Assembly (NCBI RefSeq): GCF_006546655.1
Contig: NZ_VIAQ01000012.1
Coordinates: forward strand, 1 to 64,000
Length of the DNA stretch: 64,000 bases
Direction: 5' to 3'
Source of the DNA: Methanolobus vulcani
Lineage (GTDB): Archaea; Halobacteriota; Methanosarcinia; Methanosarcinales; Methanosarcinaceae
Shown piece by piece: positions 30,629 to 52,847 of this stretch; the first letter of the stretch is position 1; every line of letters starts with the position of its first letter. A program made the translations under genes and the position numbers. Under the pieces are notes generated by a model. It saw only the letters and a program-made list of their open reading frames with translations. It was not told where the DNA came from and searched no databases.

Positions 30629-32257
30629 ATGGCAGGATATGGTAATCAACCAATAATCATCGTTGATCCAAGTAAAGAGCGCACAACAGGTAAAGACGCA
30701 TTATCAATGAATATCGCTTCTGCAAAAGCAGTTGCAAGCATTGTGAAAACAACCCTTGGTCCAAAAGGTATGGACAAGATGATGGTAAACATCATGGGTG
30801 ATATAACCCTGACAAACGACGGTGCAACAATTCTTGAGGAAATGGAAATCGAGCACCCAACCGCAAGAATGATCGTCGAGGTTGCAAAGACACAGGAAAA
30901 GATGGCAGGCGACGGTACCACCAGTGCTGTTGTAATGGCTGGCGCACTGCTCGATAAAGCGCAGAAACTCATTGATACCGGTGTTCACCCAACAGTCCTT
31001 GTAAAAGGTTACACAATGGCAACTGAGAAAGCTCTTGAGACACTCAAGGACTACGCGATAACAATTGAGAAAACAGACAGGGAAATGCTTGAGAAGATCG
31101 CAAATACATCCATCACAGGAAAAGCATCTGAAATGGCAAGGGGTCACCTTGCAAATATCTGTGTTGATGCAATCTATGCTATTGAGAATGAAGGAAAGGT
31201 CGATGTTGACAAGGACATTGTAATGGCAAAGGAAGTTGGTGGAACCCTCGATGATACTGAGCTTATCAACGGTATTTCCATCAGGAAAGAAGCACTTCAC
31301 AATGAAATGCCACGCCGCATTGAAAATGCAAAGATCGCTCTTATTGATACTGAACTTGTGTTCGCAAAGACAAACACAACATCCAAACTCCATGTTGACA
31401 GTGCTGAACAGTTGTTCGATTTCAAGGAACAGGAGAAAGCAAACTTCAGGGCAACTATCCAGAAGATCATTGACACCGGAGCAAACGTTGTATTCTGTTC
31501 AAAGAAGATAGAAGATTATGCACTCCACTTCTTCAAGGAAGCTAACATGTATGCAACAAGACGTGTCAAGGATGAGGACATGGAAGTACTTTCATACTCA
31601 ACCGGTGCAGCTCTTGTAAGGAATGTCAATGAAATTACAGCTGATGACCTTGGATACGCAGAACTTGTCGAGCAGGAAGACGAGCATGAGGAGAAGACCT
31701 ACATCAAGGGATTCAAAGATGCAAGAACCATGACAATTCTCATAAAAGGTGGTACAGAGCATGTTACTGACAACATCGAGCGTGTGTTCGATGATGCACT
31801 CCACGTGGTCAAGTCAGTATACGAGGATGGTACCATCGTACCTGGTGGCGGTGCTTCTGAGATAGAGGTCGCACAGGCACTCAGGAAATATGCAGCAACC
31901 ATCGAAGGTCGTGAACAGCTTGCAATCAGTGCATTCGCTGATGCAGTTGAAGAGCTTCCAAAGGCAATTGCTGAAAACTGTGGTTTTGACACAATTGACA
32001 CTATAATCAACCTCCGTGCAAAACACGGAACAGTGAAGAATGCAGGTCTTGATGTGGAAACCGGAGATGTTATTGACATGCTGGGCAAAGGCATTGTCGA
32101 TCCTCTCAGAGTCAAGACACAGGCAATCAAGTCTGCATCAGAAGCAGCAATTATTGTACTTCGTGTTGATGATATGCTCCGTGCAAAGGAACAGGCTATG
32201 ATGGATGTCAAACCTGAGCACAACGTACACAATTACGATGCAACAGGTATGTTGTAA
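30629..32257 (+). CDS. thsA: thermosome (group II chaperonin) subunit
   Basis: A 542-residue subunit. The equatorial ATP site has [22 protein letters not shown] and [15 protein letters not shown]. The apical domain is in the middle (residues about 220-370). The C-terminal equatorial half has [17 protein letters not shown] and ends DATGML without the Gly-Gly-Met repeats of many thermosomes. It folds proteins in an eight- or nine-membered double ring. A strong GGAGGT ribosome site (30615-30620) precedes ATG 30629, and TATA-like sequences occur at about 30570-30605. The region upstream is shared with divergent dphB. Confidence 0.95.
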
Positions 32258-32420: not shown

Positions 32421-32487
32421 ATATGAGAGGATATGAGAACATATGAATGAAATGATTAATCGTGATAAATAACGAAACCTATAAATA
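32421..32487 (+). promoter_or_regulatory. promoter of micro-protein gene 1 with phased boxes
   Basis: ATATGA occurs at 32421, 32431 and 32441 with an exact 10-bp period. It is followed by ATGATTAATCGT (32452-32463) and the TATA box TATAAATA (32480-32487). The ATG lies 38 bases beyond the start of the TATA box. The same arrangement recurs at 32872-32939. Confidence 0.7.
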
Positions 32488-32505
32488 CCATGTAAGAATG
32501 GTGTA

Positions 32506-32521
32506 TCATGATAAATCATGA
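32506..32521 (+). promoter_or_regulatory. start-codon hairpin or operator repeat, copy 1
   Basis: TCATGA-TAAA-TCATGA: two palindromic hexamers separated by TAAA. As RNA they can pair with each other, placing the start codon (32518-32520) in the stem. The start of transcription expected from the TATA box falls near 32508-32512, so the left arm may be partly outside the message. The element is repeated exactly before copy 2. Confidence 0.55.
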
Positions 32522-32622
32522 CAGAACAATACTACAACAACAACATTAACCTCCGAAAGTTTGCAACTATGCTGATGGCTCTTACCGCTACAATGGTAGG
32601 ATACTATTCCTTCATGGCATGA
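32518..32622 (+). CDS. 34-residue membrane micro-protein, copy 1
   Basis: ATG at 32518 opens a 34-codon frame closing with TGA at 32620-32622. The protein starts MTEQYYNNNINLRKFATMLM and ends in a hydrophobic helix (residues about 14-34, MLMALTATMVGYYSFMA). So it has a short polar, tyrosine- and asparagine-rich N-terminus followed by one membrane span. Copy 2, at 32969-33070, has the same opening MTEQYYNN and the same architecture with synonymous codon differences, which argues for translation. There is no strong ribosome site; the TATA box 38 bases upstream implies a very short leader. I do not recognise a family. Confidence 0.65.
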   Translation: MTEQYYNNNINLRKFATMLMALTATMVGYYSFMA

Positions 32623-32870
32623 TTTGTAAGTGAATCTGCCATGAAAACATTTCTTTAAACCCCTTTACGTTTTTATATAATAAGATATTCTTCTTTTAAT
32701 CATTCGTTTTTGAAAAATCATATACCTGATATTTTCAGCGCATGAAGTAAAAGATGATGAAAATAACATAATTTTTTGTTTATTTTCTTTTAAATTTGTA
32801 CTTTTTTATGCCGAATTTTCTTAGATAACAGATAAAAACAGACAAATGCAAAGCGGGCGACATTGCAAAA
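32623..32870. other. AT-rich spacer between the two micro-protein units
   Basis: T-rich blocks (for example TTTTATATAATAAG near 32670 and a long T-rich run near 32775-32815) could end transcription of copy 1. No further open frame with the MTEQYY opening is seen. Confidence 0.4.
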
Positions 32871-32871
32871 G

Positions 32872-32939
32872 ATATGAGAAGATATTATAAGATATGAATA
32901 GTAATGATTAATCATGATGAATTGCAAAACGTATAAATA
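32872..32939 (+). promoter_or_regulatory. promoter of micro-protein gene 2 with phased boxes
   Basis: ATATGA at 32872, ATATTA at 32882 and ATATGA at 32892 repeat every 10 bp. The perfect palindrome ATGATTAATCAT (32904-32915) follows, and the TATA box TATAAATA is at 32932-32939. Spacing from palindrome to TATA (17 bases) is the same as in copy 1, and TATA to ATG is 37 against 38. Confidence 0.7.
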
Positions 32940-32956
32940 GATTGATCCAAGAAGAG

Positions 32957-32972
32957 TCATGATAAATCATGA
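32957..32972 (+). promoter_or_regulatory. start-codon hairpin or operator repeat, copy 2
   Basis: The same TCATGA-TAAA-TCATGA element as at 32506-32521, again with the ATG (32969-32971) inside the right arm. Identity over this element is complete between the copies while flanking bases differ. Confidence 0.55.
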
Positions 32973-33070
32973 CAGAACAATATTACAACAATTACATAGA
33001 CCTCAGTAAATTTGCTGCAATACTAACCGCTTTTGCAACTGTAATAATACTTTATTCATTCATTTCATGA
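32969..33070 (+). CDS. 33-residue membrane micro-protein, copy 2
   Basis: ATG 32969 opens 33 codons ending in TGA at 33068-33070. The protein opens MTEQYYNNYIDLSKFAAILT and continues as a hydrophobic helix (AFATVIILYSFIS). It shares MTEQYYNN, a following I-x-L, KFA and the terminal Y-S-F pattern with copy 1, so roughly half the residues are identical. Codons for conserved residues differ at third positions (TAC/TAT, AAC/AAT). A single-span membrane peptide with a polar N-terminus is predicted. Function unknown; subunit of a membrane complex, stress peptide or toxin-like peptide are all possible. Confidence 0.65.
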   Translation: MTEQYYNNYIDLSKFAAILTAFATVIILYSFIS

Positions 33071-33174: not shown

Positions 33175-33771
33175 TTAGATATCATCATCTGAAAGACCAT
33201 AAAATATCTTATAATCTTCAATTGCTTTTCTTGCCTGCTTTGGATACATGTCAAGCATGTAGTAAAGGAACTCATCCCTTGAAGTGAACTCTTTCATCCT
33301 GTTAATTAGCTTTCTGGCATATTCCTTTGAATCATGGTTCTCTTTCTGAATCTCAAAAGTAAGGCAGAGTGCATCCTGTGGAAAATATTTCCTGCGTATA
33401 TACGGAGCCACAGAACCCATAAGTACATCGTGGTCAAGTCTGCTGAAAGCCGGAACACCGATGCGTTCCAGTCTTGTAGAACCTGTTAGAGATTCTAGAT
33501 TTTCAGCGGAGTATGAATGAATCTCAATGTAGACATCGGGCCTGAGTTCTTCCACAGCTTCAATGATCGGAATTCCAATTTCTGAAAAATACCTTTCATC
33601 CAGTGTTGAGATGTAATTACCATTATTAACAAGCGGTATAACTGCAAGAGTACCTTTTTGTGGAGCTTCTATATTTTCAAGAATATCTGAGGTATCTTTC
33701 CATTCATCACCGTGCAGGCCTGCCACAAAAAGCCTGACAGGTTCTCCTTCTCCAAGTATCCTGTATGCCAT
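33175..33771 (-). CDS. DUF2119 protein (deacylase-like fold)
   Basis: About 198 residues. The family markers are LFVAGLHGDEWKDTSDILEN, AVIPLVNNGNYISTLD and YIEIHSYSAENLESLTG, which echo the zinc ligands (HxxE...H) of the M14/succinylglutamate-desuccinylase fold, with CLTFEIQKEN near the end. DUF2119 is found in methanogens and has no proven function; a zinc-dependent amide hydrolase is a reasonable inference. ATG 33771, just after GAGGTTA, is chosen over TTG 33780. It is downstream of the TlyA-like gene on the same strand. Confidence 0.82.
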   Translation of the reverse strand: MAYRILGEGEPVRLFVAGLHGDEWKDTSDILENIEAPQKGTLAVIPLVNNGNYISTLDERYFSEIGIPIIEAVEELRPDVYIEIHSYSAENLESLTGSTRLERIGVPAFSRLDHDVLMGSVAPYIRRKYFPQDALCLTFEIQKENHDSKEYARKLINRMKEFTSRDEFLYYMLDMYPKQARKAIEDYKIFYGLSDDDI

Positions 33772-33816
33772 TAACCTCAACTCATTTTTACTCTCGGGTT
33801 CATTCTTCGACAGATT

Positions 33817-51860: not shown

Positions 51861-52847
51861 TCAGAACAACTTCATCTTTGTACCAATACCCAGTTCAACA
51901 GCTTTTGTGTAAACAATATTCGCAGTCACAAGATCCTGAACTGCAAGTCCTGTTGAATCAAATATTGTAATATCATCATCAGAAAGACGACCTTTTTTTA
52001 CTCCTGCGACCACTTCACCAAGTTCTGCATGGAAATCAGATTCTGAGATAATTCCCTGAGACAGCGGCACATTAACCTCTCCTGAATGAGATGCCTGTAT
52101 AATATCATCAACAATTATCCTTGCTTTTTTCATAAGTGAGGATTCCAGTTCCTGCTTACCCATGGCATCGGCACCGATGGCATTGATGTGTGTACCTTCA
52201 TGCACCCATTCGGCCTTTACAACCGGTTCTCTCACAGGCGTGGTTGTTACAAGGACATCGCAGTCACATACATTCTTGATACTCTCTTTTCTCGTAAAGT
52301 CACAACTGACCACTTTTTGCATATCCTTTTCGAAGGAGTCACAATGAGCAGCATTCCTGCATGTAATCTTAACTTCTTCGATATCCATAACTTCTGACAA
52401 TGCCAGCAATTGGGTTCTGGCCTGGCCTCCTGTACCAACCATACCAACTATATGTGAATCTTTACGAGCAAGATATTTTGCAGCGACTCCACCTGCAGCA
52501 CCGGTTCTCATATCAGTTACATGCGTACCATCCATGATTGCAAGGGGAGCACCTATTTCCGTAGAATTAAGGACTATCACAGCCATAACAGTAGGAAGAC
52601 CTTTTTCGCGGTTGTCCGGGTGCACGTTGACAATTTTTACACCTGCAATATCCTTTTCTTCCATAAACGATGGCATGGTGCGCAGGTCACCATTGTGCTT
52701 TTCAAAATAGAGATAGGACTTTGGAGGCATCTGCACTTTTTTAAGGCCATGCTCCCTGAATCCATTCTCCACAGCAGACAGGGTAAGAGGCATATCGATT
52801 ACACTTCTGACATCAGATTGGTCAAGCCACAGAACATCCATTTCCAT
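51861..52847 (-). CDS. ornithine cyclodeaminase / archaeal alanine dehydrogenase family protein
   Basis: A 328-residue protein of the mu-crystallin fold. The substrate lysine region is YLYFEKHNGDLRTMPSFMEE, the Rossmann motif is HIVGMVGTGGQARTQLLALS, and the late domain has THINAIGADAMGKQELESSL and DSTGLAVQDLVTANIVYTKA. The family includes NAD-dependent alanine dehydrogenase (Archaeoglobus), ornithine cyclodeaminase and imine reductases. The exact reaction cannot be told by eye. It starts with ATG after GGAGTG. It is divergent from the 302-residue unknown protein. Confidence 0.87.
   Translation of the reverse strand: MEMDVLWLDQSDVRSVIDMPLTLSAVENGFREHGLKKVQMPPKSYLYFEKHNGDLRTMPSFMEEKDIAGVKIVNVHPDNREKGLPTVMAVIVLNSTEIGAPLAIMDGTHVTDMRTGAAGGVAAKYLARKDSHIVGMVGTGGQARTQLLALSEVMDIEEVKITCRNAAHCDSFEKDMQKVVSCDFTRKESIKNVCDCDVLVTTTPVREPVVKAEWVHEGTHINAIGADAMGKQELESSLMKKARIIVDDIIQASHSGEVNVPLSQGIISESDFHAELGEVVAGVKKGRLSDDDITIFDSTGLAVQDLVTANIVYTKAVELGIGTKMKLF

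Follow-up and report, generated by a model that had tools for sequence, protein, structure and literature searches.

Putative paired-operator promoters of a micro-protein gene family in Methanolobus, with an upstream site in common with cdhA

Results

We analysed a 64,000-nucleotide stretch of DNA from Methanolobus vulcani (contig NZ_VIAQ01000012.1, positions 1 to 64,000), referred to here as the window. The locus occurs throughout a genus of 27 genomes, and the named proteins closest to the neighbouring DUF2119 protein come from Methanolobus. A thermosome gene and a DUF2119 gene flank two tandem micro-genes, each preceded by an array of ATATGA-like boxes, an operator-like palindrome, a BRE-like element and a TATA box (Table 1). 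A third paralogue has the palindrome and TATA box and lacks the ATATGA array; it lies on another contig and was therefore missed by the original prediction made for this DNA.

Table 1 Features of the micro-gene locus and operator promoters elsewhere in the same genome.
Feature	Coordinates	Strand	Remarks
Thermosome gene (Cpn60_TCP1)	30629-32257		Flanks both micro-genes on one side
ATATGA array, copy 1	32421..32446	+	10-bp period; ATATGA at 32421, 32431 and 32441; lineage-specific
Upstream operator, copy 1	32452..32466	+	ATGATTAATCGTGAT
BRE-like element and TATA box, copy 1	32473..32487	+	CGAAAC; TATAAATA at 32480-32487
Second operator, copy 1	32505..32519	-	ATGATTTATCATGAT; inverted, over predicted start site and ATG
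Micro-gene 1	32518..32622	+	34 aa, MTEQYYNNNINLRKFATMLMALTATMVGYYSFMA
Hairpin across stop codon of micro-gene 1	32611..32645	+	TTCATGGCA / TGCCATGAA
ATATGA array, copy 2	32872..32897	+	10-bp period; ATATGA at 32872, ATATTA at 32882, ATATGA at 32892
Upstream operator, copy 2	32904..32918	+	ATGATTAATCATGAT
BRE-like element and TATA box, copy 2	32924..32939	+	GCAAAAC; TATAAATA at 32932-32939
Second operator, copy 2	32956..32970	-	Inverted, over start site and ATG
Micro-gene 2	32969..33070	+	33 aa, MTEQYYNNYIDLSKFAAILTAFATVIILYSFIS; divergent, without 3′ hairpin
DUF2119 gene	33175-33780	-	Flanks both micro-genes on the other side
Third paralogue	G000:C13:12080-12193 (L003:5081)		MTEYYVNHNSYSFGTLFLSLMVALITYYSFLSYHGVV; same promoter core
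cdhA operator promoter	C3:52120		CODH/acetyl-CoA synthase; tandem partner at 52005
DUF22 operator promoter	C14:299752
LeuA/homocitrate-synthase-like operator promoter	C18:188176
UPF0058 operator promoter	C1:352472		Weak

Proteins of this family are 33–39 aa long, combine a polar N-terminus with a single hydrophobic segment, and are predicted to be single-pass membrane proteins; both window copies are free of cysteine. Group A occupies the thermosome locus in 1–3 tandem copies, while group B, whose proteins end in YYSFLSYHGVV, occupies the locus type of the C13 paralogue. The micro-genes are real and under purifying selection, with pN/pS of 0.29 in group A and 0.26 in group B. A first profile found them in 18 of 27 Methanolobus genomes and a broader profile in g11, which is another genus of that family; other profile matches in the order were weak, and the micro-protein family is confined to Methanolobus and g11. 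Pfam and NCBIfam held no match to the micro-proteins. The sole match of a PDB profile search, PsaM (E 0.45), was taken as chance, as were weak profile matches on other 34-aa frames (for example C15:201284), which lack both a start codon and an operator promoter.

Stand-alone micro-genes with membrane-complex-associated products are likewise found in other Methanosarcinales, namely MtrI, MtrR and sP36 of Methanosarcina mazei (PMC12774963, PMC13370731, PMC10714827), with sP36 likened by description only. MtrI, however, has 68 aa and an N-terminal four-cysteine zinc ribbon (PMC12774963), in contrast to the shorter proteins described here and the cysteine-free window copies. MtrR, with 49 aa, lacks a membrane domain and occurs in Methanosarcina only, whereas the present family has its hydrophobic segment and its own distribution.

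To describe the promoters we aligned a related set of 49 from Methanolobus and g11. The 15-bp upstream operator (ATGATTAATCATGAT) is matched at 14–15 of 15 positions in 45 of them, 5′ of the BRE and TATA box. At the start site, the minus strand matches the same operator at 12–14 of 15 positions in all 49, always at −13; random 55-nt segments mostly reach 7–9 of 15. The starts of the two operators are separated by 52–54 bp throughout the set, and the distance from operator start to ATG is 65–67 bases in every scored case. Nearly invariant in the alignment are ATGATTAATC(A/G)TGATAAAT, an A-rich BRE, the TATA box and TATCATGATAAA(T/A)CATGACAGAA, the last of which is the first operator inverted. 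The dyad was also found by promoter model R1 itself (described below), which gave minus-strand matches on many micro-gene promoters. The original prediction had described two duplicated promoters in which ATGATTAATC(A/G)T is followed by TATAAATA at fixed spacing. The duplication is real, and the spacing is 16 intervening bases in both copies (17 as a coordinate difference); the inverted operator copy over each ATG was absent from that description. Both micro-gene promoters are very probably regulated. Group-B promoters additionally have TTGTTCGTA in common, about 25 bases 5′ of the operator. That the operator might be a general Methanolobus promoter element was considered and rejected: in 463 kb sampled from the same genome, only 6–7 of 254 TATA-like sites carry it; of the seven ATCRTGA occurrences near these sites, six lie between −21 and −27.

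In M. psychrophilus R15 the promoter-to-TSS distance is 19–22 nt, and 15–16% of transcripts are leaderless (PMC5378194). If the same distance applies here, transcription of copy 1 would start at about 32507–32510, inside the second operator. Judged from where the BRE and TATA box lie, the 5′ UTR would be only about 8–11 nt long, making the micro-gene mRNA probably near-leaderless. The block over the ATG could then be a translation-initiation signal of such an mRNA instead of a second operator. It overlaps the ATG in 49/49 promoters, and codons 2 and 3 are fixed at the DNA level (Thr2 ACA 43/43, Glu3 GAA 49/49), so the constraint over the start site reaches into the coding sequence. Against this, the block is a near copy of the upstream operator, inverted and at a constant distance from it, its dyad is detected on the minus strand by the promoter model, and it persists as a palindrome where the ORF has been lost. 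We consider a purely translational signal unlikely and favour a second operator.

The original prediction had centred on the ATATGA-like boxes, which were said to recur every 10 bp before both micro-genes and to form an activator array on one face of the helix. The boxes lie where they were placed, with three-box scores of 18/18 in copy 1 and 17/18 in copy 2, and inside the window both arrays are far above chance. A 26-bp array pattern with ≤3 mismatches gave four matches across the window, all within the two array places, with 0.31 expected, and WTATKA ×3 at period 10 gave two matches there and none in 100 shuffles. However, both arrays also score in TRF as 2.7–2.9-copy 10-bp tandem repeats, and the similarity between the two window copies starts exactly at the array; since these copies are paralogous, their arrays are not independent evidence. 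Among the 49 related promoters the array is found in four, the two window copies and one each in G008 and G023, where copy 1 only keeps it, in degenerate form (15/18 each) and at the same place. The remaining 45 have three-box scores of 8–13/18, which is shuffle level; absence of the phasing from orthologues is what the original prediction had itself named as counting against it. The WTATGA-N4-WTATGA pair is not enriched genome-wide (9 matches versus 6 for the reversed control), and the search for further arrays thus pointed to no regulon. Each of two winged-helix regulator genes arranged in tandem (G000:C4:15540-16930, L174), in the vicinity of a Ni-Fe hydrogenase operon, combines a pair of WTATGA boxes spaced by 10 bp with an operator-like ATGAATAATCATGAG close by, which makes a local role of the boxes possible in the window lineage. 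As the main control of the micro-genes, conserved across the family, a phased activator array is quite improbable; at most it is an accessory of one sub-lineage. What survives of the original reading is a pair of duplicated, regulated-looking promoters, without the helical-phase array as their key.

Model R1 is sequence-only, was built from the micro-gene promoters and was scanned over the same genome, the genus and the family. Its matches outside the micro-genes alone are independent; their scores are modest (20–28 bits), their E-values rough, and the target genes are identified from downstream ORFs. In the genome of the window, the operator precedes cdhA, a DUF22 gene, a LeuA/homocitrate-synthase-like gene and, weakly, UPF0058 (Table 1), and the tandem operator pair of cdhA recurs with similar spacing in several genomes. 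Within the fetched loci, own genome included, the element stands before cdhA in 16 Methanolobus genomes and before DUF22 in 18. In other Methanosarcinaceae genera it lies 5′ of cdhA in g7, g10, g11 and g12, and 5′ of DUF22 in g9. The operator core is located about 20–24 bases before the TATA box in the micro-gene, cdhA, DUF22 and LeuA-like classes, with the cdhA P1 site read manually; the weak UPF0058 site has no scored operator–TATA offset. The non-micro promoters show no clear counterpart of the start-site operator. The HdrC/HdrB promoter (G000:C9:34555-34669, L038) has two operator-like sites, but these are 81 rather than 53 bp apart and were not counted. In genus g7, an operator ATGATTAATCGTGATAAT lies before the gene for another predicted membrane protein, of 55 aa (MDTYYEGSMMDDEDN...; G121:C1:71258, L272).

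Short, single-helix proteins present in 1–3 tandem copies per genome could also be small hydrophobic toxins in a pair resembling type-I toxin-antitoxin systems, a reading that would account for both the tandem copies and the tight control. Yet no antisense gene was identified, the sequence is conserved between paralogues, and control in common with cdhA would be unusual for a toxin. We regard this explanation as highly improbable.

At the RNA level, the hairpin across the stop codon is a group-A feature, its ATGGCA/TGCCAT stem being read from the listing in 19 of 22 group-A copies. The full stem is YTCATGGCA/TGCCATGAR, with a C-G to T-A exchange near the base, and has been lost from window copy 2. 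Group-B transcripts have a common 3′ UTR, which includes GTACCACA and a stem-loop at its end, and a 3′ TTTTCCTCC block occurs in many orthologues. A downstream TTTTCCTCCAATC block, conserved in most orthologues and not in the window copies, could pair with Shine-Dalgarno sequences.

In five Methanolobus genomes (G002, G006, G012, G018 and G019; loci L203, L207, L206, L023 and L204) the ORF is lost or decayed while the loci keep the promoter, with its palindrome over the start, and the 3′ stem-loop. Identity among these loci is 68–91% in the promoter and 80–100% in the 3′ UTR with its terminal stem-loop. The ORF region, mostly closed by stops, has 12–26% identity between two sub-clades, and the upstream flanks have 30–41%. 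Loci with enough flank lie near a YetF-like gene (weak Pfam match), a neighbourhood that leaves their homology to group B resting on RNA features and not on synteny.

This retention where the ORF is gone means that the transcript itself may be functional. It could be a small RNA with a dual function or a mainly regulatory one, with the micro-ORF secondary, or lost in some lineages. The persistence of promoter and 3′ UTR, the group-A hairpin and the 3′ block of many orthologues all agree with such a role. There is also a functional analogy, and only that, to M. mazei sRNA41, a Methanosarcinaceae small RNA that acts on the cdh pathway by repressing ACDS (cdh) translation through RBS masking (PMC5867862). 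On the other side, purifying selection on the protein is clear in intact copies, the conserved 3′ stem-loop may be a terminator only, the CCTCC block is absent from both window copies, and Rfam gave no match. A dual-function or mainly regulatory RNA is a possibility of less than even weight. Equally tentative, and somewhat doubtful, is a composite of both functions: dual-function Methanolobus transcripts would combine a paired inverted-operator promoter, its upstream site as in CODH/acetyl-CoA synthase, with a functional 3′ stem-loop RNA and, in most species, a micro-protein, and one species group would have dropped the protein and kept the RNA.

Discussion

Our preferred reading, to which we assign a probability of roughly 0.6, is that these are paired-operator promoters of micro-protein transcripts, under a putative regulator of the operator ATGATTWATCATGAT, with the upstream site common to cdhA, DUF22 and LeuA-like genes. 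What we observe directly is the sites themselves, how they are oriented, spaced and conserved, the constraint on the coding sequence and the element shared with other genes. From these we infer a trans-acting regulator of acetyl-CoA and energy metabolism, with an additional operator over the start site at its micro-gene targets.

In the proposed mechanism, a putative DNA-binding regulator would recognise the 15-bp operator. Archaeal activators that recruit TBP/TFB sit just upstream of the BRE. The upstream operator abuts the BRE/TATA, and this shared position favours activation from the upstream site, presumably through TBP/TFB recruitment, although graded repression could act from the same place. 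The second operator lies on the same helical face as the upstream site, about five turns away, and from its position over the start site and ATG may cap or switch off initiation at the micro-genes. Alternatively, both sites may repress. The sign of control and the role of the protein are likewise putative parts of this model.

A candidate regulator gene of the Lrp/AsnC family (G000:C14:299890-300336, L040) lies directly 5′ of the operator-bearing DUF22 gene, and adjoins DUF22 in all Methanolobus loci that showed the two genes. It is present in g1, g2, g11 and g14 only, so that the micro-genes (g1, g11) could be under its control, but not all cdhA promoters. As sole regulator it was rejected, being absent from g7 and g10, which keep the cdhA element. 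A palindromic site in an energy-metabolism promoter is likewise described for the winged-helix regulator HdrR of hdrBCA in M. barkeri (PMC11218639), a likeness by description, with a target other than those of the micro-gene/cdhA operator.

The two-operator promoter, the micro-protein family without a database match and the operator in common with cdhA across Methanosarcinaceae make a better finding than the array. To our knowledge, few cis-regulatory sites have been defined in methanogen carbon metabolism, and fewer regulators. The result is a precise 15-bp operator at a fixed place relative to the TATA box, common to cdhA in several genera. Such a defined operator makes the putative regulator findable and the question of RNA or protein testable. 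Under a cdhA-type site, this micro-gene family without a database family may reflect the state of the cdhA pathway or take part in it.
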